From a virus: DNA of 45,125 nt. Positions 18,830 to 37,957 of this stretch are shown here, piece after piece; position 1 is the first letter of the stretch; each line of letters starts with the position of its first letter. The notes beneath the pieces are model-generated. The model was given only the letters and a program-made list of their open reading frames with translations, was not told the DNA's origin and ran no database searches. The stretch spans positions 1 through 45,125 of IMG/VR virus record IMGVR_UViG_3300014166_000004; one strand, given 5' to 3'. Made by a program: the position numbers and the translations under genes.

Positions 18830-20827
18830 TTAGGAGGGTTCGTGTCCGACGTTCTTGTAGAGCCCGCGCCAGTCGAGCACCTTCGCCGCGAAGTCCTCGC
18901 GACACTTGATCTCGACGCCATCGACATCGAACCCGATCCGGGTTTCGATCGTCGGCCCCTCCTCGCCCTCGAGGTAGCCGTATTCGATGATGTCGATCTG
19001 CGCCGGATCCGCCGCCAGGAACCACGCGAGCGGTTCGTTGTCGAGCCGCGGTTCCGCGATCACGGTGAGTTTCCCGCTGAACGGGTTCACGGCGAGCACG
19101 GTCTGCGGCGTGATCGGCGTGACGATCGCATCGCCCTGCGTCTCGAGGGCGGAGCCCACGAGGAGATACTTCGGCGCGATGTTGAGCCGCTCGCCGTCGA
19201 GCGATACCTGCTGGCGCATCGCCGCGCGCGCCGCGCCGAGCGAGTCGACATCGATCACGGCGCCGCTCGAATCGATGTTGAGGTGCGCCGCGGAGAAGAG
19301 CGCGTTCCCGTCGCCCATCGTCGGGTTGCTCGTGATCTGATCCCACACGAGATCGCTCTCGAGGTTCCGCGCCGCGCGCCCGAACATCGTCGGCACGCGG
19401 CCGAACGCGTCGGCGTCGTCGTTCACGAGGGCCTTCCGCGTGATGGCGAACACGCGGCCGTACGTCGCAAGCTGGTACGTCTCGCGGCCCTCGCCGATCG
19501 TGCCCCGCTTGAACTCGCCGTGCTCCTTCACCTCGAGGAGCGCCGGCGCGTCGCCCATCTGCTGACGGTAGACGGGTTTGAAATCGGGGAGGTTGACCTG
19601 GCGCGCGATCGTCTTGAACGTCTGCGGCGCCTCGTCGTACGCCTTGCGGACGGTTTTGTTGGCGACGTCGGCCAGGAGGTACGCGAAATCGCTCGTCGTG
19701 TGGTAGCCGTGCCCGCTGCGCTGATTGAGCCCGAGCGCCGCGGCGGCGAGCTCCATCTTCGAGAGGCCCGACGTCCGCACGCCGGCCGCGTGGAGAAACG
19801 TCCGCGCCGTGTCGAGGAGCGTGAGCCCGCGATACGGCCGACTCTTGTCGTCGAGTTTGAAAAACTGCGGCGCGATCCGGTGCAGCAGGGCCGCCTCGAT
19901 CCCGCCCCGCACGTGCACCAGCGGATCCTCGCCGAGCGTGACGGAGGTACCGGGTTGCGGGCCGCGATCCTGCGCGCCGCGCGCCTGGAGCTCGACGAAC
20001 ACGAGGCGCGACACCTCCGCGAGCGGCGTCCGCTTCTCGATGTGGTGATCGATGAACTCCTGCGGCATCCGGCCGCCGCGGGCGGCGGTGATGATGCCCT
20101 GGACGCGGGCGGTTTCGTCGGCGGCGGCGCGTTCGGCGACCGTCGGTTCGGCCGCGGGAGCCGGTCGCGCGGCGGGTTCCGCCGGGTGGAGCCGGAGGGC
20201 CGCGGCGGCGGGATCTTCGGCGACAGTTTCGGCACGGCGAGCGGCATCGTTCACGGCAGGCTCCTTACGGATGATGAGACACGGATTGGAATCGGCGCGA
20301 TCGTTCTCGCCTTTGCGAGTCCGCGCGCCGGTGTCGGCCGGCATGGGAACCATTGAGATCTCGTAAGGTTCCCAATCGATCGCCGTACGAACAGGGATCG
20401 CGCCGGTGTCGTCCTGCTCGAATTTGTGGACGCGGTACCCGACGCTGACGTTTTGCAGGATGCGATCTTTGACGTCGTTCCAGATCGGCGTCACAGAATC
20501 GCGGTTGCTGAACCGAACCCGAACGATCGCCTTCCCGTTTTCGATCCGGAACGTGTTCGGCACGACGGTGCCGATCTGATCCTCGACCGACCACGCGGAA
20601 TGCGCGTTGAGGAGCGGAGCCGTTTGGAGGCGCGCGACGCGGATCGCGTCGGCGGAGATCTCGAGGGCCTCGAGGTACTCGCCGGTGTCCCAATCGAACC
20701 GGCGAACCTGCGCGCCCGTGGAGAAAATGAGCTCGATCGAGCGATCGGTTTCGTTGATCGTGTCGGCGGCCGCCCGCGCCAGGAGCGAGAGCGGCGGAAC
20801 ATCGATCGTCGTCGCGGCCGGTTTCAT
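18830..20827 (-). CDS. Prohead protease-major capsid protein fusion
   Basis: A 665-residue two-domain protein. Residues 1 to ~170 are a prohead protease of the HK97/U35 herpes-assemblin type: IELIFSTGA (32-40), LLNAHS with His76, then NVSVGYRV with Ser128 and DWEPYEISMVPMPAD (151-165) with Glu156. An Ala/Pro/Glu-rich linker (~195-240) follows. Residues ~260-665 are a Mu gpT-like major capsid protein (TLGEDPLVHVRGGIEAALLHRIAP, RGLTLLDTARTFL, TYGRVFAITRKALVNDDADAFGRVP, and a C-terminal IIEYGYLEGEEGPTIET). The protease would cut itself off during maturation, as in known fused systems. The gene follows the HTH gene after 74 bp that contain a hairpin. Confidence 0.9.
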   Translation of the reverse strand: MKPAATTIDVPPLSLLARAAADTINETDRSIELIFSTGAQVRRFDWDTGEYLEALEISADAIRVARLQTAPLLNAHSAWSVEDQIGTVVPNTFRIENGKAIVRVRFSNRDSVTPIWNDVKDRILQNVSVGYRVHKFEQDDTGAIPVRTAIDWEPYEISMVPMPADTGARTRKGENDRADSNPCLIIRKEPAVNDAARRAETVAEDPAAAALRLHPAEPAARPAPAAEPTVAERAAADETARVQGIITAARGGRMPQEFIDHHIEKRTPLAEVSRLVFVELQARGAQDRGPQPGTSVTLGEDPLVHVRGGIEAALLHRIAPQFFKLDDKSRPYRGLTLLDTARTFLHAAGVRTSGLSKMELAAAALGLNQRSGHGYHTTSDFAYLLADVANKTVRKAYDEAPQTFKTIARQVNLPDFKPVYRQQMGDAPALLEVKEHGEFKRGTIGEGRETYQLATYGRVFAITRKALVNDDADAFGRVPTMFGRAARNLESDLVWDQITSNPTMGDGNALFSAAHLNIDSSGAVIDVDSLGAARAAMRQQVSLDGERLNIAPKYLLVGSALETQGDAIVTPITPQTVLAVNPFSGKLTVIAEPRLDNEPLAWFLAADPAQIDIIEYGYLEGEEGPTIETRIGFDVDGVEIKCREDFAAKVLDWRGLYKNVGHEPS

Positions 20828-21148: not shown

Positions 21149-22768
21149 CTACCCCTCCGCGGCCGCTCCGTCGGCCGGCGCGTTTGGATCCGCCGGCGCG
21201 TTCGGATCGTTCGGTGTCGCCGGCGCGGCCGGGTTCGCCGGCGCGGCCGGGTTCGCTGATTGCGCCTGGCCGGCTTGCGTCATGCGCCGCGGATCGGAGT
21301 CGAGCACGACGCCGGCTTTGTCGAGCGCCTCGTTCCACGCCTTCATTTCGGCGAGCACCTTCGCCGGATTGAGCCCGCGCGCGCGGAGCTCCTCCTGCAT
21401 CGTCGTGATCCCCGATCGCACGTTGCGGAGGATCGCGAGGCCCTCCGACGCCGGATCGATGAACTGCGCCGGCGGCGGCGTCCAATCGACGGGCGGCGTG
21501 TCGACAGTTTTCAGCACGCCGGCGATCGCCGCGGCCTCCATCGCCCAGGCCCACACGGGATCACAGAACCCAGGGATCACGATCCGCCAGCGGTGATCGT
21601 CGATATCGGGTTGATGCGCGATCCGCTCCATCCGCGCCGCGGAGAATGAGAGATCGCGGAAATCCCCCGTCATGCTCGAGAACAGCACGCGGAGGCCGGC
21701 GGCGAGCCCGCGGAGCTTGCGATCCATGTAATCGCCGAAATCGTTCACGCGCGGAGGCTCGACGACGGAGATCTGGCGGCCGGCCGGGAGGTTGCTCACC
21801 ATGCCAGGCACGAGCGCGTCGATCGCCGGCGTCGGTTGATCGTTTGGTTCGCCGAGCGGCGCGCCGCCGCCGTCGAGATCGTCGCGGACGAACACGGCCA
21901 GGCACGCGGCGATCTTTTGCTTCACGAGCGTCGCGTCGTCGTAATCGTCGAGATCCTTCCACGCCAGGAGCGACGGCGCGAACCATGAAACCGCGCGCAC
22001 CTGGCCGGGCCGCTCGCCGCGGAACAGGTGGAGCACGCCCTCCGCCGGGATCCGAACCGACGGCGAGAACGATCCCGCGATCGATCCCGGGTGTTCGCGG
22101 AACATCCAGTAGGCGACGCGTTGACCGATCGGCGAGAACTCGATCCCCTGGATGATCCGGCCGCCGTTCGGCGTCGTGATCTGATCCTTTGCCGTGTCGA
22201 GGAAATCAGGCTCGACGATCTGTAGTTGCATCGGGATCGGGAGCGGCCGCCCGTTCGTGTCGACGTCGCCGGGGAGCCGGTAGCGCCGGCGGATCAGCAC
22301 CTCGCCCGACTCCGCGATCGTGCGGAGCACGAGCTTCTCGAGGCCGTAGAAATCGTGCCGGCCGTCGGCGTCGCATGCCGTCGACTCGCCCCAGGCGCGC
22401 CAGAGCGCCATCGCGCGCGCGTTCGTCGAGTCGGGAACGATCCCCCATCCGATCGTTTCGTTCACGATCGAGGCGAGCGCCGCGGCCGCGTATGGATTGT
22501 TTCGCACGAGATCGCGGACGGCGTTCCGGAGGTTCGCGGCCGCGGGCCCGATCGCCGCGTTCGCATCGGTGCCGGGTTTCTTCCAGCCCTGCGTCCGGTA
22601 TGTGCTCGCGGCGCCTTCATAGTGCCGCGCCAGGATCTCGCCGGCGTAGCGGGCCCGTTGCCGCTTGAGCGTCCATCGCGGAGCGACGGGCGCGGTGATC
22701 CGATCGAGCCGCTCGCCGAACGTGCGGCGCCGCGGCGGTTCTGATCTTTCGACTCTCTCGAATGCCAT
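21149..22768 (-). CDS. Portal protein (lambda gpB family)
   Basis: A 539-residue protein. YEGAASTYRTQGWKKPGTDANAAIGPAAANLRNAVRDLVRNNPYAAAALASIVNETIGWGI is the classic N-terminal signature of the gpB/phage portal lambda family. Then come ESGEVLIRRR, LQIVEPDFLD, GIEFSPIGQRVAYW, VLHLFRGERPGQVRAVSWFAPSL and LFSSMTGDFRDLSFSAARMERI, all expected in order. It forms the dodecameric ring through which DNA is packaged. The C-terminal ~40 residues are a Pro/Ala/Asn/Asp repeat (NPAAPATPNDPNAPADPNAPADG), mirrored by a tandem DNA repeat at 21175-21255. It follows the glycosyltransferase cassette, not gpW as in lambda. Confidence 0.93.
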   Translation of the reverse strand: MAFERVERSEPPRRRTFGERLDRITAPVAPRWTLKRQRARYAGEILARHYEGAASTYRTQGWKKPGTDANAAIGPAAANLRNAVRDLVRNNPYAAAALASIVNETIGWGIVPDSTNARAMALWRAWGESTACDADGRHDFYGLEKLVLRTIAESGEVLIRRRYRLPGDVDTNGRPLPIPMQLQIVEPDFLDTAKDQITTPNGGRIIQGIEFSPIGQRVAYWMFREHPGSIAGSFSPSVRIPAEGVLHLFRGERPGQVRAVSWFAPSLLAWKDLDDYDDATLVKQKIAACLAVFVRDDLDGGGAPLGEPNDQPTPAIDALVPGMVSNLPAGRQISVVEPPRVNDFGDYMDRKLRGLAAGLRVLFSSMTGDFRDLSFSAARMERIAHQPDIDDHRWRIVIPGFCDPVWAWAMEAAAIAGVLKTVDTPPVDWTPPPAQFIDPASEGLAILRNVRSGITTMQEELRARGLNPAKVLAEMKAWNEALDKAGVVLDSDPRRMTQAGQAQSANPAAPANPAAPATPNDPNAPADPNAPADGAAAEG

Positions 22769-22772
22769 TCGC

Positions 22773-23384
22773 TTACCCCTTTTCCGGAACGATCGGGATC
22801 CGCCGCGTCGGGTTCGGTTCGGGCCCGCGACACGGGCATCGCTTCGCCGTCGGAACCGTCGACGGGAGCGCGTCGCCGTGCGCCCGCCGCCAGTGATAGA
22901 CGTACAGACTCTCGAGGACGTAGACGCGGAGCCCGGCGCGCGCGATCGCGAAATGCATCATGTGATCGACGCACAACATACCGTCGACGAACCCGCCGGC
23001 GAGCTCCCAGGAGCGCCGCGAGAGCATCATGAGCACGCCGCCGATCCCCTTCGTCTCCGTGCAATCGAGGAGCGTTCGCCGCTCGAGGCGCGCCGCGCCG
23101 ATCTTCCGGTGGTACGCCATGTCGTGATTATCGTGATCGGCCTCGCGCGCCCGCTGCCACGGCGACGCGATCCGGTTCGTCGTCGCAGTGACGAGGCCGA
23201 CGTCGGGCCGGTGCTCGATCACTTCGTGCAATTGCCGGTACCACTCCCGCGTCGTCGGCATCGCATCATGATCGAACAGACACGCCCAACCGTCGGCCGG
23301 GAGCATCGCCATTGCGCGATTGTAGGCGCGCCCCAGGTTCGCCTCGAGATCGAACGGTATGAACGTCGTGAGCTCTATCGCCAT
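22773..23384 (-). CDS. Glycosyltransferase, GT-A fold (GT2-like)
   Basis: A 203-residue protein (MAIELTTFIPFDLEANLGRAYNRAMAMLPADGWACLFDHDAMPTTREWYRQLHEVI). The phrase NLGRAYNRAM followed by DGWACLFDHDAM is the strand-helix and DxD motif (DHD) of GT-A glycosyltransferases. KGIGGVLMMLSRRSWELAGGFVDGMLCVDHMMHFAIARAGLRVYVLESLYVYHWRR is the acceptor-side half with a catalytic-type Asp. It is the last of four sugar-handling genes just before portal. The start overlaps the preceding glycosyltransferase by 10 nt; ATG at 23396 is an alternative. Substrate unknown. Confidence 0.82.
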   Translation of the reverse strand: MAIELTTFIPFDLEANLGRAYNRAMAMLPADGWACLFDHDAMPTTREWYRQLHEVIEHRPDVGLVTATTNRIASPWQRAREADHDNHDMAYHRKIGAARLERRTLLDCTETKGIGGVLMMLSRRSWELAGGFVDGMLCVDHMMHFAIARAGLRVYVLESLYVYHWRRAHGDALPSTVPTAKRCPCRGPEPNPTRRIPIVPEKG

Positions 23385-24076
23385 TCGCTGACCCATGGAT
23401 AATGCGCGCTCTGCTCGAGCACCTCGAGATCGTCGGAGCCGAGCACGACGATCCGCGCGCCTCGCGGGAGGTGCGGATGGCCAGGACCGACGCCGCGGCG
23501 CTCGAGCCGCTCGTATCCCTTGCCGAAAAACGTCACGAGCCCGTCGGCCTCCGTCCACACGGCCGGCCGGATCGCCGGCGTCCGCGATAGATAGAAATTG
23601 AGCATCGCCTGATCGCTCCCGACGCCTCGAGGCGCCGCGCGCCTGGCGTAGCCGTCGGGATCCGCGTCGAACGCGCGCCAGAGCGGATCGAGCACGCCGG
23701 CGTCCATGAGGACGATCGAGCCGGAGAACACGCCCGCATATGCGACGCGCCAGCACACGAGCGGATCCGGCCGATCGACGAGCGGCGTTATGTCGTCGAC
23801 GATCACGACGTCGAGATCGAGCGACAGGATCCGATCGCCGATCGCGCGCGCGAACTCCCGATCGAACTGGCGCATCCGCCGCCGGCATCGCGGCGAGTCG
23901 GCATGGCGGGCCGGGAGCTCGAGCACCTCGATCGCGTCGTCGAGGCCGGCGCCGTCGTCGGTGACACAGACGATCCGGTGCTCGAGCTCGAGGCGCCGCG
24001 CGAGCATCGATCGGAGCGTGTTCACGTGGCGCGCGCCAAACTTCGATCCCCACTTCCACGTGAGGACGGTTAGCAC
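23375..24076 (-). CDS. Glycosyltransferase-like protein (nucleotide-diphospho-sugar transferase fold)
   Basis: A 233-residue protein opening VLTVLTWKWGSKFGARHVNTLRSMLARRLELEHRIVCVTDDGAGL. A first strand is followed by HVNTL and IVCVTDD, as in GT-A enzymes acting on NDP-sugars. GDRILSLDLDVVIVDDITPLVD carries the metal-binding DLD motif. GSDQAMLNFYLS is a further family-like motif, and the C-terminus is PRGARIVVLGSDDLEVLEQSAHYPWVSEWR. The GTG start lies over the stop of the triple-domain enzyme, with GGGAG upstream. Part of the four-gene glycan cassette; donor and acceptor unknown. Confidence 0.75.
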   Translation of the reverse strand: MLTVLTWKWGSKFGARHVNTLRSMLARRLELEHRIVCVTDDGAGLDDAIEVLELPARHADSPRCRRRMRQFDREFARAIGDRILSLDLDVVIVDDITPLVDRPDPLVCWRVAYAGVFSGSIVLMDAGVLDPLWRAFDADPDGYARRAAPRGVGSDQAMLNFYLSRTPAIRPAVWTEADGLVTFFGKGYERLERRGVGPGHPHLPRGARIVVLGSDDLEVLEQSAHYPWVSEWR

Positions 24077-25737
24077 TCCTCGTACTCCCGCTGACCGTCG
24101 AGGAAAAACGCGGCCGCTCGAGGATGGGTGAGTTGCGAGCGGTAGCACGCGAGCGCGCGGAGCTTGCGTTCGATCGAGTCGGCCGCCGGCGGCGAGAGCT
24201 CGAGGCCCTCGCGAATACGTTCGGCGCCGCGGTACGTCTGATACCGACGCACGATGGAACCGAACACCTCGCCGGCGGCCGCCGCGACCGCCACGTGATC
24301 CGCGTGCGAGGCGTTCGCCGACGGCGCCCATATCTCCGCCGGCATGCCGTGCTCGCCGATGAACGCGCGCATCTTGGCGGCGAGATCTCCGCCGGCCCAT
24401 TGCTCGACGGGCCCGGCGCCCAGGATGGCGGCCGCGGCGCGCGACTCCTCGAGGCGTTCCGACGTGTCGCCGTAGTCGCGGACGGACGGATAGCAGATCA
24501 CGATCCGCGGCCGCGCCCGTAACAGCGTGAACGCCGCGAACAGCGTCTCGTCGTCGGCGTGCGGCGCGAATAGAACCGCGTTCCGCTTCACGCCCTCGAC
24601 GAAAAAGACGTCGGGCGGCGCGCCGTGGAACCGCTGACAGAGCGACGCGTCGCGGTACTTCGTCTCGTCGGGCCCGACGTCGAACACGGTGAACCCGCCG
24701 GCCTCGAGGTGCTCGCGGACGAACGCCGGCGTCGTGAACGTGATCGCCGGTTGCGATCCCTTCCATCCGCCGACGCATCGCGACCGCGGATCCGCCGTCT
24801 CGTCCTCCGTGATCCGCACGACGCCGCCAGGCTCGAGCACGCGCGCGAGCTCGTCGACGAACGCCGGCCAGGCGTCGGCCGCGAGGTACATGAGCGCGTG
24901 TGAGATCGTCACGCCTGCGACGGTGCCCGCGGCGAAATCGCGCAGGCCGTCCTCGAATTTCCAACCGAGCGACTTATCGAGGTTCACGAGGCCGTCGAGC
25001 GGATGCCAGGATCGATCGTCGGGGTTTCCGCATCCGAGGTTCAGCCGGAGCGGCGAGCGGATCCCGCCGTGCGCCAGGCGCGCGATCTTCGGGAGTCGAC
25101 TCCGGCCCGTGACGCCGTGCCGGTACGTCGCGAGCACCTCCGGAACATAGCGGCATCGCGCGACCTCCGCGATCGCGATCCAGAAGTACCAGTCCTCCGG
25201 AACCTGGCGATCGTTGAACCGGATCCCGCCGATCGTCGCGCGTCGAATGAGCGGCGCCATGATCGGGATCAGGTTGCCGCGGCGGAGGAGCGGCGCGATC
25301 CATCCGCCGAGCTCGTTTCGATCGTACGAGTATTGTTCCGACGCCTTGATCGTGCGGCGCTTCGCCGCGTCGCGGATCTCGACGTCGCATAGAACCCAAC
25401 CGATAGTCGGATCGAACGCGCGCACCTGGCGATCGAGCTTCGTCGGTTCGATCGTGTCGTCGGCGTCGAGGAACATGAGGAACGCGCCGCGCGCCATCTC
25501 GATCCCGAGGTTCCGCGCCGACGAGGGCCCGCTGTGCGGTTGCCGCATGTAGCGAACCCGACGATCGCCGGCGAACGCGTTGAGCGCCTCCGGCGTCGCG
25601 TCCGTCGATCCGTCGTCGACGACGACCGCTTCGACCTCGACGCCGCCCGTCGACGCGAGCACGCTCGCGATCGCCTCGCCGACGACGGCGCCGTGGTTGT
25701 GCGTCGGAATGATCACGCTCACGAGCGGCGGCGTCAT
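24070..25737 (-). CDS. Triple-domain enzyme: GT2 glycosyltransferase + SAM methyltransferase + PIG-L deacetylase
   Basis: A 555-residue protein with three consecutive catalytic domains. Residues 5-225 form a GT2 glycosyltransferase: VSVIIPTHNHGAVVGEAIASVLAS, VVVDDGS (38-44), metal motif DADD (91-94) and VPEDW (179-183). Residues ~229-385 form a class I SAM methyltransferase: LRLNLGCGNPDD (230-241), and LARVLEPGGVVRITEDE as the post-strand-4 loop. Residues ~386-555 form a PIG-L/LmbE-type deacetylase: FAPHADDE (390-397) and HADH (478-481), both zinc-binding motifs. The plain reading is that one polypeptide transfers a sugar, probably an N-acetyl-hexosamine, and then deacetylates and methylates it; the substrate is inferred. 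The ATG overlaps the upstream stop (ATGA). Confidence 0.88.
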   Translation of the reverse strand: MTPPLVSVIIPTHNHGAVVGEAIASVLASTGGVEVEAVVVDDGSTDATPEALNAFAGDRRVRYMRQPHSGPSSARNLGIEMARGAFLMFLDADDTIEPTKLDRQVRAFDPTIGWVLCDVEIRDAAKRRTIKASEQYSYDRNELGGWIAPLLRRGNLIPIMAPLIRRATIGGIRFNDRQVPEDWYFWIAIAEVARCRYVPEVLATYRHGVTGRSRLPKIARLAHGGIRSPLRLNLGCGNPDDRSWHPLDGLVNLDKSLGWKFEDGLRDFAAGTVAGVTISHALMYLAADAWPAFVDELARVLEPGGVVRITEDETADPRSRCVGGWKGSQPAITFTTPAFVREHLEAGGFTVFDVGPDETKYRDASLCQRFHGAPPDVFFVEGVKRNAVLFAPHADDETLFAAFTLLRARPRIVICYPSVRDYGDTSERLEESRAAAAILGAGPVEQWAGGDLAAKMRAFIGEHGMPAEIWAPSANASHADHVAVAAAAGEVFGSIVRRYQTYRGAERIREGLELSPPAADSIERKLRALACYRSQLTHPRAAAFFLDGQREYEEC

Positions 25738-26468
25738 ACGGCGGCCGCCTCGAGGGCCTCGCGCTCGAGCGCGCGCCAGGTTTCGACGAGCGGGCGGAGC
25801 GTCGTCGACGCCATCCCACGGAAGATCGCGCGACGGAGATCGCTTTTCAGGTGAACGATCCGCGTCGACGACGGATCGAACCGCGTCCACGTGGAATCCT
25901 CGCAATTCCAGATCTCGCCGGGGAGCTTCGCGATCGCGCATCCGTTCCCCGCGCGCTCGAGCATGAACCCGAGCGCCGCCTGGTTGATGCCGGCGTACTT
26001 CATGCGCCAGGGCCGGAGCGCCGCGGCGTCGCCGAGAAACGACCGATTGACGGCGGCCCATTGCTCGACGAACGCGCGCGATCGCGGCGACACGCGAACG
26101 AACACCACGCCGGCGTTGAACGGGAGGCGCGACGCGGCCGCGGTGATCGCGAGATCGAACGGCCGATCCCAGGCGGGATCGAGCGGCCCGAGGATCATCG
26201 TGTCGACGTCGAGGAGGAGCACCTGATCGCCGTCGGCCGACGCGCGGATCGTGTCGCGCCAGGCGTCGAGCTTCGCGGAGTTGTGCTCATGCGCGGGAAC
26301 GCCGAGCGTCGAGCGGTAGGACGTCGGCGCCGGGAGCTCGAGGATCTGGCGGCGCCAGGCCGGCGCGTGACGGAGCGCCGAGTACTCGAGCGCGCGCGCC
26401 ATCCGACGGAACTCGCCGCCCGACGTGCCGGCCCCGAAGTAGACGGAGGCGAGGAGCGGCGCGGCCAT
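25734..26468 (-). CDS. Glycosyltransferase (GT8-like)
   Basis: A 244-residue protein (MAAPLLASVYFGAGTSGGEFRRMARALEYSALRHAPAWRRQILELP...). DQVLLLDVDTMILGPLD supplies the DxD metal motif (DVD) after a hydrophobic strand, as in GT8 and related GT-A enzymes. SRLPFNAGVVFVRVSPRSRAFVEQW, then GINQAALGFML and IVHLKSDLRR match the second half of that fold (the NAGV and H-K motifs). It is the first gene of the sugar cassette, 15 bp after gpW, so it is transcribed with the head genes. Confidence 0.83.
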   Translation of the reverse strand: MAAPLLASVYFGAGTSGGEFRRMARALEYSALRHAPAWRRQILELPAPTSYRSTLGVPAHEHNSAKLDAWRDTIRASADGDQVLLLDVDTMILGPLDPAWDRPFDLAITAAASRLPFNAGVVFVRVSPRSRAFVEQWAAVNRSFLGDAAALRPWRMKYAGINQAALGFMLERAGNGCAIAKLPGEIWNCEDSTWTRFDPSSTRIVHLKSDLRRAIFRGMASTTLRPLVETWRALEREALEAAAV

Positions 26469-26483: not shown

Positions 26484-26693
26484 CTATACGCCCTTGCTCG
26501 TCGTCGCGACCCGGTACGATCGGCGCGTGCCGTCGGCGCCGGCGACCTCCGCTTCCATCACGGCGAGGAGCTTGAGCATGTCGTCGATCGAGTTGAACAC
26601 GACGGTTTGATTGTCGAATGTCATCGATCGAGCGCCGCGGCCGTCGGCAATCGCGCGGCGGAGGTTTTCGGCGTCCGTTGAGGTAAACGGCAT
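26484..26693 (-). CDS. Head-tail joining protein gpW-like (69 aa)
   Basis: MPFTSTDAENLRRAIADGRGARSMTFDNQTVVFNSIDDMLKLLAVMEAEV followed by a short polar tail. Length, a helix-beta hairpin-helix plan and the phrase (R)AIADGxxxxxF..xxVxFxSxxDMLxLLxxME are those of lambda gpW, which sits at the portal and is needed for tail attachment. In lambda gpW lies directly between terminase and portal, as here apart from the inserted sugar genes. It begins 248 bp after the terminase stop. Confidence 0.83.
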   Translation of the reverse strand: MPFTSTDAENLRRAIADGRGARSMTFDNQTVVFNSIDDMLKLLAVMEAEVAGADGTRRSYRVATTSKGV

Positions 26694-26941: not shown

Positions 26942-26948
26942 CTACGGC
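26919..26948. repeat. Three tandem 10-bp repeats at the terminase 3' end
   Basis: CCACTCCGGC, CCACTCCGGC and CCACTACGGC in direct succession. The third copy holds the terminase stop codon (42-44 of 26942-26944). They lie 26 bp from the parS-like palindrome. Confidence 0.6.
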
Positions 26949-29032
26949 CGCGGCTTTTTCAACCAATCGGGCCGCGACGGAACCCAGGCCGGCCGGCCAG
27001 GCGGCCGCGGCGGCGCCGGCGCTGGACTAGTCGACGGCGCCGGCCGCGGAACTAGGCCAGGGCGGAGCGGCGCCGGCGGCGGAGCGGGCGGCGGCGCCGG
27101 CGGCGTCGGTTCCGGTTCCGGCGTCGAGCTCGAGGAGCTCGAGGAGCTCGCCGGCGGCGCCGTCCGCGGCCTGGCGGCGGCGGCGGCCGCGGCCTCCGTC
27201 TGACCGACGCCCAGGAATTTCTCGCGCGCCTCCCAATCGCGATCGTTCGTCCGATCGACGCCGGCGAGCACGGCGGCCGCTCGAGCGTAGACGCGCGCGT
27301 CGAGCGCGTGATTCTGGCGGCCCTTGATTACTTCCCATTCGAGCCGGATGTACCCGCGCCGCGTTTTGTGCGCGGTGAGTTGCTCCGCGGTGATCTGCCG
27401 AAACCACTCCTCCGGGTACTCCGGATACCGGACGTAGCCGGGCGGCGTCGTGCCGTCTTTCAGGAGCTCGAGCCGGAGCCAGCCGTATAGTTCCGACTTC
27501 ACGATCCCGACGGCGATCGGCCACTGGCGGCCGCCGCGTTTCCGTTTCTTCCCGCTGATCGTGACTTCGATCGCTTGCGGCGTGCCGATGATCGAGGCGC
27601 CGTGATCGACGCCGCGGATCGGGAACGCGCGGCCCGGGTATTTCTTCGCCCAGGTGTAGACCGTTTGCGTTCGGTACTGCGAGTCGACGGCGACGACGCG
27701 GATCGGTTGCTCGACGTCGGGCGCTTCCGCGTGCGGATAGGTGCGCGCCATCATCGCGTCGAGTTGCGGCCAGGGCCCGCGCTCGAGATCGTCGGTGTCG
27801 CCCGCGATCTCGCCGGCGTCGATCGACCATGACCGCTTGCCGCGGCCCCAACCGACGATCTCGTACACGAGGCGATCCTTCTGCACGTCGACGCCGGCGG
27901 TGAGCACGAGCGCGCCAGGCGGGATCATGCTCGTCGCGTACGCCTCGCGCCGGCGATAGAGGTTCTCCCATTCCGGCGCCTCGCCCTTTGATTTCCACAC
28001 CTCGCCCAGGACGGTGTTCACGAACACGCGGAATTTTTCGGGATCCTTTTCGACCTCGACGAACTCCGTCGCGATCTCGCCCCAGGAGATCCAACCGACG
28101 GGCGCGTAGAGCGCGTTGAGGTGATAGCTCCGGATCTTCCCGGCGCCGCGGCCCGGGTTCGTCGCGCGCCATTCGCCGGCGGCGAGCATCACGGATTTTT
28201 GATGGTTGCGAATGAACCCGCCGCACGCCTCGCACTCATAGACCGCGGCCGCGGGCGGGAGCTCGAGCTTCGTCCACACGAGGCGCGAGAACTCGAGCGT
28301 CTGGAACGCGCCGCATATGGGACACGGGACGAAATACTTCCGCGCGTCGCCGCGTTCGTGCGCGGCCTCGATCGCGGAGCGGCCGGCGATCGTCGGCGTC
28401 GAGAACTTCCCTCGCTTGCGGCGCGCGAACGTGCGCTGGCGCGCCTCGACGAGCGCGATCGGCGAGCCCTCCTCCTCGACGTCGATCGGCCAGGCGTCGA
28501 TCTCGTCCATGAGCGCGTATTGCGCCGGCATCGATCGCAGGGCCGCCGCCGATTGTGCGCCGGCGATCACGAGGTGCCCGCCGGTGAATGACTTCTCGAG
28601 GACGGTGTTCGCGGAGTCGCGCGACTTCGCCGGCGCGATCTTCTCCGCGATCTTCGGCGTGTCGGTGATCAGCGGGCCGACGCGTTGACGCGATCCGCGC
28701 TTCGCCGTTGTCAGATCGGGCCATACGAGCATGATCGGCCCGGGCGCGTGATCGATGAAATAGCCGAGCGCGTTGAGGAGCGCCTCCGTCTTTCCGATCT
28801 GCGCGGCGCTCATGAACACGACCTCCTCGACGTCGGAGCGCGAGGAGAAACAATCCATGATCTCGCGGAGGTACGGCGTGCGATCGGTGCGCCAGGGCCC
28901 AGGTTCCGCGCTCGACTTTTTCGGGAGCCGTCGGTGCTGATCGGCCCACTCGCTCACGGAGAGCACGGCATCGGGACGGATGCCGTCGGCGCGCGCCTTG
29001 CGGATCTCGCGGATGGCGGCCGCGTCGCTCAC
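26942..29032 (-). CDS. Terminase large subunit (gpA family)
   Basis: A 696-residue DNA-packaging ATPase and nuclease. The Walker A-type motif SAAQIGKTEA is at 75-84 and Walker B YALMDEIDAWP at 172-182. RSAIEAAHERGDARKYFVPCPICGAFQ and YECEACGG give two CxxC pairs, a zinc site typical of gpA-type terminases. The nuclease half contains VLTAGVDVQKDRLVYEIVGW and VVAVDSQYRTQTVYTWAKKY with acidic residues, then LEWEVIKGRQNHALDARVYARAAA, the characteristic end. A ~90-residue tail rich in Ala, Ser and Pro (eight Ser in a row, then PEPEPTPPAP) is longer than usual. The GTG start overlaps the small-subunit stop (GTGA). Confidence 0.94.
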   Translation of the reverse strand: MSDAAAIREIRKARADGIRPDAVLSVSEWADQHRRLPKKSSAEPGPWRTDRTPYLREIMDCFSSRSDVEEVVFMSAAQIGKTEALLNALGYFIDHAPGPIMLVWPDLTTAKRGSRQRVGPLITDTPKIAEKIAPAKSRDSANTVLEKSFTGGHLVIAGAQSAAALRSMPAQYALMDEIDAWPIDVEEEGSPIALVEARQRTFARRKRGKFSTPTIAGRSAIEAAHERGDARKYFVPCPICGAFQTLEFSRLVWTKLELPPAAAVYECEACGGFIRNHQKSVMLAAGEWRATNPGRGAGKIRSYHLNALYAPVGWISWGEIATEFVEVEKDPEKFRVFVNTVLGEVWKSKGEAPEWENLYRRREAYATSMIPPGALVLTAGVDVQKDRLVYEIVGWGRGKRSWSIDAGEIAGDTDDLERGPWPQLDAMMARTYPHAEAPDVEQPIRVVAVDSQYRTQTVYTWAKKYPGRAFPIRGVDHGASIIGTPQAIEVTISGKKRKRGGRQWPIAVGIVKSELYGWLRLELLKDGTTPPGYVRYPEYPEEWFRQITAEQLTAHKTRRGYIRLEWEVIKGRQNHALDARVYARAAAVLAGVDRTNDRDWEAREKFLGVGQTEAAAAAAARPRTAPPASSSSSSSSTPEPEPTPPAPPPAPPPAPLRPGLVPRPAPSTSPAPAPPRPPGRPAWVPSRPDWLKKPRP

Positions 29033-29583
29033 TCGCCGGCGGCCTCGAGCCGATCGGCGACGTCGCCGAGCGCCTGACGGATCGCCTCGTCGAGGAGCGC
29101 GAACACCTTCGCCGGATCGGTTTCGGCGGCGAGCTCCGCGGCGAGGCGCGTCGGTATGTTGAGCATCCCGTCGCGGATGATACGAGCGTCCTCGAATGCG
29201 GCCCGCTTGTGAGCGGCGACGTCGACGACGCGGCCCTCGCGGAGATCGTTCGCGAGTCGGAGCGCGCGATGGCGCTCGAGCGCGGTGAGCGTCGACGCCT
29301 CCGTGAGCGACTGGCGCGCGCCCTCGACGGCGGGCCCGTTTGGGAGCTTCGCGGCGTTCGCATCCCACGCCGCACGCGCGCCGGCGACGTCGGTGATCAC
29401 TTGCTTACGGCCGCTCGAGGACGGGCCCAGGCACGACGGCGGGATCCGTTGCGACGCGACCGCTTTCCGCACGGCCTTTTCGTCGACGTTCCGATCGCGC
29501 GCGAACGCGGAGAGCGTCATCACCTGGCCGGCCGCGGCCGCCGGTTTCCCCTTGCCTCGAGGAGCTCGCCGGCGCTTTTTCAC
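29029..29583 (-). CDS. Terminase small subunit (gpNu1-like)
   Basis: A 184-residue protein. A basic N-terminus (VKKRRRAPRGKGK) precedes a DNA-binding helix-turn-helix (VMTLSAFARDRNVDEKAVRKAVASQRIP), then SLTEASTLTALERHRALRLANDLREGRVVDVAAHKRAAFEDARIIRDGMLNIPTRLAAELA, which matches gpNu1/terminase small subunits in helical pattern and the IRDGMLNIPxRLAAELA phrase. It recognises the packaging site and guides the large subunit. The GTG start at 29583 overlaps the ASCH gene stop (GTGA). Confidence 0.88.
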   Translation of the reverse strand: MKKRRRAPRGKGKPAAAAGQVMTLSAFARDRNVDEKAVRKAVASQRIPPSCLGPSSSGRKQVITDVAGARAAWDANAAKLPNGPAVEGARQSLTEASTLTALERHRALRLANDLREGRVVDVAAHKRAAFEDARIIRDGMLNIPTRLAAELAAETDPAKVFALLDEAIRQALGDVADRLEAAGE

Positions 29584-30100: not shown

Positions 30101-30507
30101 CGGAGGTTGACCTCGAGGCGCGCCGTCATGCGGCCGGCGGCGTCGATCGCGACGTCGCGGATCTTTCCCTCGAGCGGGCCCGCCAGGCGGGAACGCGCCT
30201 CGAGGCGCCGGGCGGCCTCCGCGGCGACGTCGGCGATCGCGTCGGCGATCCGCCGGAGATCTTCACTCCTCGCCAGGCGGAGCCGCGGGCCGGCGCCCTC
30301 GAGGGCCTCGATCAATTCGACGTCGGTGAGTGTTTCCGCTTTCATGGGTTGCCCTCGCGTCGCGAGAGGCTCGAGCGTGACGGGATCGAGGCCCTCGCGA
30401 CAGCAAATACACGTATCGTTTTCGGCGTGCGTTCGGTAGAAACCCGACGAGCGCGCGGCGCCCGTTCGGGTGAACGGAACGCCGCACGACGGACAAACCA
30501 CGATCAC
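30097..30507 (-). CDS. Zinc-ribbon protein with helical C-terminus (136 aa)
   Basis: The start is a GTG overlapping the deaminase stop (GTGA). Residues 1-40 (VIVVCPSCGVPFTRTGAARSSGFYRTHAENDTCICC) give C5, C8 and C33-C36, a likely zinc ribbon. From Met55 (MKAETLTDVELIEALEGAGPRLRLARSEDLRRIADAIADVAAEAARRLEARSRLAG) the protein is helical. The second half could be translated alone from Met55, though its ribosome site is weak. Function unknown. Confidence 0.6.
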   Translation of the reverse strand: MIVVCPSCGVPFTRTGAARSSGFYRTHAENDTCICCREGLDPVTLEPLATRGQPMKAETLTDVELIEALEGAGPRLRLARSEDLRRIADAIADVAAEAARRLEARSRLAGPLEGKIRDVAIDAAGRMTARLEVNLR

Positions 30508-31010
30508 GTCGATCGCGCCTCCGCGCGTCGCTTGCGGAGCCGTTCGTATTCGCCGGCGATCGAGAGCCGGTGAAACTCCTCGATCGGGTACCGGCGCCAT
30601 CCGTCGACGTGATAGAGCCACACGGCGACGACGCCGGCGAACCGGAGGAGCTTCGCGCATTCGATACAGTCAGGGCCGCCCGACACGGCGAGCTCGTCGG
30701 CGTACGATTTCACGTGGATCACTTCGACCGATCCGCCGCTCGCGAGATCGACGCCGCTGAGGATCAGAGCTTGTTCCGCGTGAACGGCCTCCCGCCTGCA
30801 TGTTGCCTTGCATCGATCGGAGCCGTCGCACGGGCCCGCCGGTTGCTGATTGAACCCGACGGCGACGAGCTCGTATCCCTCGAGCGCGCTCCCGGTGAAC
30901 GCGACGGCGCCGCGTTGCGACTGACACGACGACTCCGCCGCGGCCGCGAGCGCGATCGCGACGAAATCGTCGAATGTGATCGGCGGGCCCTTCGTGCCGA
31001 ACGGGATCAC
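30504..31010 (-). CDS. Cytidine/deoxycytidylate deaminase-like enzyme
   Basis: A 168-residue protein with the zinc-dependent deaminase signature: REAVHAEQALIL with His77-Ala-Glu79 and GGPDCIECAKLL with Cys115 and Cys118 as the other zinc ligands. SSCQSQRGAVAF near the N-terminus corresponds to the first strand of the fold, and an extra Cys cluster (CDGSDRCKATC) recalls ComE-type dCMP deaminases, which have a second metal site. It would hydrolyse (d)CMP or a related base; the GTG start overlaps the methyltransferase stop (GTGA). Confidence 0.8.
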   Translation of the reverse strand: MIPFGTKGPPITFDDFVAIALAAAAESSCQSQRGAVAFTGSALEGYELVAVGFNQQPAGPCDGSDRCKATCRREAVHAEQALILSGVDLASGGSVEVIHVKSYADELAVSGGPDCIECAKLLRFAGVVAVWLYHVDGWRRYPIEEFHRLSIAGEYERLRKRRAEARST

Positions 31011-31558
31011 GATCGAGCTCCCGGGATCAGGAGCGCGAACGCGCCGGAGAGCGGGCCCGTCTCGACGATCTCCACGCTCGCGTCGAACACGCCGGCCAGG
31101 CGATCGATATGCGGCCGGAGCGGCGGCGACGCGACCTTGTAATCCTCCGTCGGGATCAGGACCGCCCGGCATCGGTGCAGGCAGTACTCGAGCACGGCGG
31201 GCCGCCGCGGCGTGTCGTGCGGCCCGTCGATCAAACCGAGATCGTAGCGGCGCGGGTTGATCGTCGGGATCGTCAACGGATCCGCCCAGGTGTAGGCGTG
31301 GAGCTCGAGGAGGCCGGCGAACTTGCGGCCCATCCGCGAGCGGTGCACCTCGAGCCACTTCGGATCGTCCTCGCACGAGTCGATCGTCGTCGCCCCGCCT
31401 TCGATGAGCGCGAGCGTCGACGAGCCGGGCCCGAACTCGAGGATCACTTCCGCCGCGAGCGCGCGGACGGTTCCCAGGACGGCGCCATAGTCGGCCATGC
31501 TCCACCAGTGTTTCTCAGCCGGGTAGAGCGTGAACGGCGGCCGCGCGCGTTCGATCAT
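31007..31558 (-). CDS. SAM-dependent methyltransferase-like protein (class I fold)
   Basis: A 183-residue protein. VILEFGPGSSTLALIEGGATTIDSCEDDPKWLEVHRSRM contains motif I (EFGPGSST) and the acidic end of strand 2. YDLGLIDGPHDTPRRPAVLEYCLHRCRAVLIPTEDYK supplies motif IV (LIDGP) and the next strand. This is the Rossmann-like Methyltransf_24 pattern. It is coupled on both sides (ATGA, GTGA) to a zinc-binding protein and the deaminase, so it may modify a nucleotide or small molecule; the substrate is not visible. Confidence 0.68.
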   Translation of the reverse strand: MIERARPPFTLYPAEKHWWSMADYGAVLGTVRALAAEVILEFGPGSSTLALIEGGATTIDSCEDDPKWLEVHRSRMGRKFAGLLELHAYTWADPLTIPTINPRRYDLGLIDGPHDTPRRPAVLEYCLHRCRAVLIPTEDYKVASPPLRPHIDRLAGVFDASVEIVETGPLSGAFALLIPGARS

Positions 31559-36971: not shown

Positions 36972-37205
36972 TCAGATGATCAACCGTGCCGGGATCGCGT
37001 CGACGGCCGGCGTCGCCCGCCGGTGCTCGACGAGCTCCCGCTCGAATTCAGACGCGTCGAGGCCGTCGGCGACGGCGATCCGCGTGATGTAGGCGTGACA
37101 CGGGATCCCGCTTTCGGTCTGCCCCTCCCATATCCGCGCCGGTACCTCGCGGCCCTCGACCATCAGGCGAACGATCTTCGTCGTGCTCTCGAGCGATACC
37201 CTCAT
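36972..37205 (-). CDS. Hypothetical protein (77 aa)
   Basis: MRVSLESTTKIVRLMVEGREVPARIWEGQTESGIPCHAYITRIAVADGLDASEFERELVEHRRATPAVDAIPARLII. A beta-rich first half followed by one helix, the size of small phage proteins that follow the DUF5131 gene. The ATG overlaps that gene's stop (ATGA). No family recognised. Confidence 0.6.
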   Translation of the reverse strand: MRVSLESTTKIVRLMVEGREVPARIWEGQTESGIPCHAYITRIAVADGLDASEFERELVEHRRATPAVDAIPARLII

Positions 37206-37957
37206 GCCCTCGCCTCCGTCGTGTAAGTGGGAACCTCGAGCCACTGGCGGCCGTCGAGCGTGTTCCCGTTCGCCGTCGGGGTTCGGCCGCCCCATTGTTT
37301 GAAGTAGAACGCGACGCCGGCGGCGATCGCCTGATCACGCGCCGAGCGGATGATCGCCGGATCGGCGCCGGCGGGAGCTTTCGGCGAGCTCAGTCCTCCG
37401 GCGATCAACCAATCGATCCCCTCGAGGTTCCATCGCACGTCGGCGATCGCGGGTTCGTAGGAAATGAACCGGCGCGCGGCCGGCGTCGCGCGGAGCTCCT
37501 CGAGGCGCCAGGTGTAATCGGGAGTTTCGACCGTGACGCCATACCAGACGTTCGGCCGCGGCCGCTCGAGCCACGCGGCCGGAACCCGCCGGCGGATCTC
37601 ACGCGCGCGTTTCGTGAGGAGGAGCCAGGTGAGGTTCGGCGTCGCCTCGATCAGATCGAACAGCCGGCGCCGCGGCGCCTCGAGCTCCTCGCGCGCCTCG
37701 AATACGTCGGCCATGGATGCACAAAACACGCGGGCCCGTTTCGCGTCGCGCGCGGCCGCGGCGTTCCATCGGACGGGATCGTGCCAGTGGTGATCGCCGA
37801 AAAAGCGACGCGGCGCGTCGGCGCCCCAAATGCCGAACCCGAGACGGTGAGCGAAGATCCGCGCGTAACACTCGTCGCACGCCGGCGACACCTCGACGCA
37901 TCCCCACCATGGGTTGAACGTGTGATCGGTCCAGCCGATCGCGGAGTCTTTCCCCAC
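37202..37957 (-). CDS. Phage Gp37/Gp68 family protein (DUF5131)
   Basis: A 251-residue protein. SAIGWTDHTFNPWWGCVEVSPACDECYARIFAHRLG is the family signature, with three Cys (GC...CDEC) in radical-SAM-like spacing. Further matches are RVFCASMADVFE, TWLLLTKRAREIRR, NVWYGVTVE, RFISYEPAIADV, IDWLIAGGLS and VAFYFKQWGGR. The biochemical role of this common phage family is not established; the Cys pattern suggests an iron-sulfur or radical-SAM relationship. GTG start; the upstream stop overlaps it (TAGTG). Confidence 0.88.
   Translation of the reverse strand: MGKDSAIGWTDHTFNPWWGCVEVSPACDECYARIFAHRLGFGIWGADAPRRFFGDHHWHDPVRWNAAAARDAKRARVFCASMADVFEAREELEAPRRRLFDLIEATPNLTWLLLTKRAREIRRRVPAAWLERPRPNVWYGVTVETPDYTWRLEELRATPAARRFISYEPAIADVRWNLEGIDWLIAGGLSSPKAPAGADPAIIRSARDQAIAAGVAFYFKQWGGRTPTANGNTLDGRQWLEVPTYTTEARA

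Follow-up and report, generated by a model that had tools for sequence, protein, structure and literature searches.

A tailed soil phage carries a single ORF in which a GT2 glycosyltransferase, a class I SAM methyltransferase (MT), and a PIG-L/LmbE de-N-acetylase follow one another on one polypeptide. This tri-domain protein is probably a trifunctional phage enzyme that tailors a virion glycan and is expressed late, within a virion-glycosylation cassette. The DNA analyzed here (the window) is an entire IMG/VR record of 45,125 bases, with a lambda-family portal and a GpA-type terminase. The coordinates of the features discussed are collected in Table 1.

Table 1. Features of the tri-domain ORF, the cassette, and its borders in the window
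Feature	Coordinates	Strand	Residues	Basis or remark
Tri-domain ORF, GT2-MT-PIG-L	24070..25737	-		555 aa, no internal stops (translation)
GT2 domain (GT-A fold)	25063..25737	-	1-225	PF00535, E 6e-29; Foldseek
GT2 motif DDGS	25606-25617		41-44	
GT2 motif DADD	25456-25467		91-94	
GT2 motif ED			181-182	
Class I SAM MT domain	24580..25062	-	226-386	Methyltransf_11; Rossmann-type strand/helix order in model
MT motif I LNLGCGN	25027-25044 (LNLGCG)		232-238	
PIG-L/LmbE de-N-acetylase domain	24073..24579	-	387-555	PF02585; BshB1-type profile matches
PIG-L motif PHADDE	24547-24564		392-397	
PIG-L motif HADH	24295-24306		478-481	
P2, GT-A glycosyltransferase-like	25734..26468	-		Stop overlaps tri-domain ORF start; profile match to 6mw5
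P3, glycosyltransferase-like	23375..24076	-		GTG start overlaps tri-domain ORF stop; phrog_1962, E 1.4e-8
P4, glycosyltransferase-like	22773..23396	-		5 bases short of portal; phrog_14179, E 1.8e-18
MT2, methyltransferase-like	31007..31558	-		Homologs at the cassette in relatives
Small gene at gpW position	26484..26693	-		Upstream cassette border; position and conservation
Portal protein	21149..22768	-		Downstream cassette border; PF05136, E 4e-96
Terminase large subunit (TerL)	26942..29368	-		GpA_ATPase, E 1e-86; GpA_nuclease, E 6e-84; longest ORF, true start probably internal

Domain composition and conservation of the ORF

A preliminary description of this DNA had claimed a single polypeptide with three sets of motifs in order, belonging to a GT2 glycosyltransferase, a methyltransferase, and a PIG-L deacetylase. 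The translation, the positions of the motifs, and the profile matches bear out this claim. In Pfam scans of the whole protein, Glycos_transf_2 was matched at residues 7 to 134 with 101.5 bits against a cut-off of 23.3 bits (E 6e-29), PIG-L at residues 389 to 490 with 27.8 bits (E 4e-6), fractionally below its cut-off of 28.2 bits, and Methyltransf_11 at residues 267 to 307 (E 0.0018). When the domains were scanned alone, both of the latter passed, PF02585 with 31.2 bits versus 28.2 and Methyltransf_11 with 21.6 bits versus 21.2. All 10 of the family members examined matched PF02585 (best E 1.5e-13), and all 10 matched Methyltransf_11 at E <= 0.01 (best E 1.5e-8). Across the aligned relatives, the catalytic motifs show little or no variation.

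The first domain belongs to GT2, with PF00535 above its cut-off and DDGS, DxD, and ED motifs that are invariant in the family. The third domain belongs to PIG-L/LmbE by its profile and by the metal-binding residues PHxDDE...HxDH, with de-N-acetylase activity as the predicted function. The profile of this domain matches the solved deacetylase BshB1 (6p2t, E 7e-7), whose PHxDD and HxDH residues line up with its own, and an LmbE-related protein (2ixd, E 1.3e-6). The middle domain likewise belongs to the class I SAM methyltransferases by the Methyltransf_11 profile and the glycine-rich motif I LNLGCG, with methyl transfer from SAM as its predicted activity. The residue that opens this motif is not the usual acidic one, and the domain is compact; its activity or substrate could accordingly be unusual.

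Structure prediction, which had been proposed as a check, gave a three-domain AlphaFold model of the full-length protein with a mean pLDDT of 89.6 and a pTM of 0.64 (57-row alignment with the domain register checked). Values of pLDDT below 50 are confined to a short loop at residues 210 to 215. An earlier run with five closely related rows (pLDDT 49.7) was set aside. The pTM indicates that the relative placement of the domains is less certain than the domains themselves. With the whole model as the query, the best Foldseek matches in the PDB were GT2 enzymes (E 1e-14). Because the whole chain was submitted, GT2 matches dominate and the MT and PIG-L folds get no independent confirmation from this search; the identity of these two domains therefore rests on the profiles and the predicted order of secondary structure.

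According to the family profiles, about 11 distinct lineages of viruses, at 54 to 81% identity, carry GT2-MT-PIG-L as one ORF (the window group, L099, L100, L101, L103, L104, L105, L109, L121, L124/L125/L126, and L127). The dN/dS ratios of the three domains, which are approximate owing to the GC bias of these genomes, lie between 0.13 and 0.45 in each (Nei-Gojobori), and by this sequence-based estimate purifying selection is acting on all three. The preliminary description had noted that the ORF might be an assembly fusion of separate genes. The same single-ORF order in about 11 lineages of independent contigs rules out such a fusion and is the product of neither chance nor a chimera. In two relatives (L106 and L107), the PIG-L part is a separate gene that overlaps a GT2-MT gene, which indicates that covalent fusion is not essential. 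This split could be taken to favor a chimeric assembly or an accidental read-through of separate genes, but given the recurrent fusion, the invariant catalytic motifs, and the purifying selection, such an artifact has practically no chance of explaining the ORF.

We additionally searched for the architecture elsewhere. Among 50,697 phage records, there was no match over most of the tri-domain protein and none for its MT-PIG-L part. A capped number of candidates per genome was scored in 95, 296, 398, and 297 genomes sampled from four phyla (about 1,090 in total), and none of these candidates was a fused MT-PIG-L; the PIG-L matches in this sample lacked the phage-family MT, and some were PIG-L-GT2 fusions. 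The surroundings of the 80 top-scoring cellular GT2 loci contained no MT or PIG-L of the tri-domain family. The arrangement had been put forward as unfamiliar for a described phage enzyme, with the proviso that it might turn out to be common already. No phage with it was found among the catalogued records searched, and the partial sample of cellular genomes gave no sign that it is common. Taken singly, the enzymes are ordinary and the domains familiar, and every pairwise fusion has been seen either here or in published work; it is the three-way combination that catalogued phages are not known to have.

Four viral contigs (L129, L130, L132, and L198) encode a reversed PIG-L-MT fusion with GT2 absent from the ORF. 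The PIG-L domains of the three reversed-fusion contigs placed on the tree fall in a different clade from the tri-domain PIG-L, so this pairing probably arose separately. By eye, PIG-L-MT lies between two glycosyltransferase-like ORFs in L132 and L198, with a terminase-like ORF downstream, and an upstream glycosyltransferase-like ORF lies beside it in L129. Sampled Pseudomonadota and Acidobacteriota encode PIG-L-GT2 fusions with the deacetylase at the N terminus (L225, L228, L230, L233, L234, and L238). Bacterial proteins of this kind (e.g., L225, L228, L230, and L234) resemble the phage protein in carrying a deacetylase and a GT2 on one polypeptide, but the order is reversed and the phage-family MT domain was not detected in those ORFs. 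Since all three domain pairs recur as fusions, one shared substrate is likely. The PIG-L or MT domain might instead act on a small molecule, such as a nucleotide sugar or a thiol precursor, with the fusion only co-expressing unrelated activities. The nearest solved relatives of the PIG-L domain are BshB-type small-molecule deacetylases, and L106 and L107 encode PIG-L on its own. However, PIG-L has been joined repeatedly to MT and to GT2, as would be expected if the activities share a substrate, and we give the small-molecule explanation little credence.

Genomic setting of the cassette

The tri-domain gene and three glycosyltransferase-like genes (P2, P3, and P4) form a cassette, which in most relatives includes a second methyltransferase gene. 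In the window, P2 comes before the tri-domain gene and P3 and P4 come after it, and the starts and stops overlap. The P2 family profile resembles Skp1 alpha-galactosyltransferase (6mw5, E 1.2e-5). P3 and P4 match PHROG glycosyltransferase families (phrog_1962 and phrog_14179, respectively), and profile searches against solved structures gave no credible relative for either. P3 follows the PIG-L-bearing gene in those relatives whose locus reaches that far. Seven relatives (L103, L104, L109, L121, L124, L126, and L127) have an MT2 homolog directly after the tri-domain gene and before P3; the match of MT2 to Methyltransf_24 is weak (best E 0.007). In the window, an ORF at 30504-31010 shows deaminase-like His-Ala-Glu and Cys-x-x-Cys patterns and has no Pfam match, and a DUF5131 protein is encoded at 37202-37957 (E 4e-63).

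The cassette belongs to the packaging/head module and in the window lies between the gpW-like gene, which has no Pfam match, and the portal gene. In all 14 placed loci, some of which are short contigs with TerL alone visible, it runs in the same direction as the packaging/head genes. The order is TerL, cassette, portal in most placed loci, and the cassette directly precedes TerL in L106, L107, and L109. Bordetella phage PBb001, the nearest cultured relative by portal (42%), keeps the order of TerL, small gene, and portal with nothing between the small gene and the portal, which indicates that the cassette is an insertion. When distant relatives are compared, similarity is mostly higher for the proteins of the cassette than for TerL or portal, a pattern consistent with either exchange between phages or stronger constraint. 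Elsewhere in the window, a capsid protein at 18830-20827 is fused to a weak prohead-protease-like N-terminal segment.

This position bears on what the cassette might modify. One possibility is the host surface polysaccharide, with seroconversion or superinfection exclusion as the outcome. Among the matches listed, the closest cellular GT2 (47%) comes from a Rokubacteria contig, where its neighbors are of exopolysaccharide type, two relatives encode an integrase, and the GT2 domain has GtrB-like PHROG matches. However, no integrase was detected in the window and the genes are embedded in a late packaging/head operon, so that modification of the host surface is possible but distinctly unlikely. 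Modification of phage DNA against restriction, in which a glycosylated hydroxymethylated base would be tailored by the deacetylase and the methyltransferase, is less likely and in our judgment improbable. Glycosylated phage DNA is in general an established phenomenon, and the window carries an N6/N4 DNA methylase gene (1159-2121, E 7e-17). However, no thymidylate synthase-family gene was found in the window or in 11 relatives, in searches whose controls worked, and the cassette lies among late packaging/head genes rather than replication genes. The lack of a Tet_JBP match argues weakly in the same direction, as the control for that search was silent.

Proposed tailoring of a virion glycan

Tailoring of a virion glycan is the reading that we favor. 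The GT2 domain would extend a growing glycan with a sugar, in all likelihood an N-acetylated hexosamine. De-N-acetylation of an N-acetylhexosamine in that glycan would fall to the PIG-L domain, and the MT domain would methylate the same or a neighboring sugar, on nitrogen or on oxygen. PIG-L enzymes of known substrate deacetylate N-acetylglucosaminyl compounds, which suggests an N-acetylhexosamine in the product. From this specificity we infer that transfer of an N-acetyl sugar followed by de-N-acetylation and methylation, the chemistry put forward in the preliminary description, is plausible. P2, P3, and P4 may build the remainder of the glycan chain, and MT2 may methylate it a second time. 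The acceptor would probably be a protein of the head or tail synthesized concurrently. The position of the genes suggests the timing of expression rather than the target, and a virion acceptor is favored by the genomic setting of the cassette.

Phage virion glycans are little explored, and the phage examples cited below involve glycosyltransferases to which no tailoring enzyme is fused. If the proposal is true, a de-N-acetylated, methylated glycan would give the particle a sugar that is capped or positively charged, which would affect how the virion adsorbs, how stable it is, and how it is recognized. The pairing of PIG-L, MT, and GT2 in varied orders makes the shared substrate a concrete, testable prediction.

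Comparison with known systems

In rhizobia, GlcNAc transfer, de-N-acetylation, and N-methylation are carried out by the separate proteins NodC, NodB, and NodS. NodB is a CE4 polysaccharide deacetylase and NodS belongs to an MT family of its own. The reaction logic proposed here is alike, but the Nod proteins are separate and of different families. Pfam matches of the tri-domain protein down to the E 1 level include none of the NodB or NodS type, the protein scores 29.8 against 550 bits with the NodC model, and it was rejected as a member of the Nod-factor enzymes. A more specific proposal, tentative and on balance unlikely, is that one phage polypeptide transfers a sugar, de-N-acetylates it, and N-methylates the amine thus freed, so that the virion would acquire a charged N-methyl-hexosamine cap by a Nod-factor-like route that uses unrelated enzyme families.

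The Stenotrophomonas phages DLP3 and DLP5 carry a PIG-L deacetylase and a methyltransferase among the sugar genes of one phage (PMC7326821), but these are all separate genes with no GT2 fusion. Mycobacteriophages use glycosyltransferases of their own, such as Che8 gp110 and Corndog gp38, to decorate proteins of the capsid and the tail tube; a fused deacetylase or methyltransferase is not described for them there (PMC12363180). Foldseek hits of the tri-domain model include a Che8 glycosyltransferase (E 2.9e-9). In Tetraselmis viridis virus S20 (L201), a glycosyltransferase/methyltransferase cluster lies just upstream of head-closure Hc1 and includes a P3 homolog (34% identity) and genes annotated as sialyltransferases.

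The chlorovirus PBCV-1 protein A064R is a three-domain GT-GT-MT enzyme that acts on the capsid glycan, and a second methyltransferase, A061L, is separate (PMC9614988). A064R differs from the tri-domain protein in lacking a deacetylase, in its domain order, and in coming from another class of virus. In architecture, however, the soil phage protein likewise fuses a glycosyltransferase and a SAM methyltransferase in one viral polypeptide of three domains, with a second methyltransferase encoded by a separate gene.
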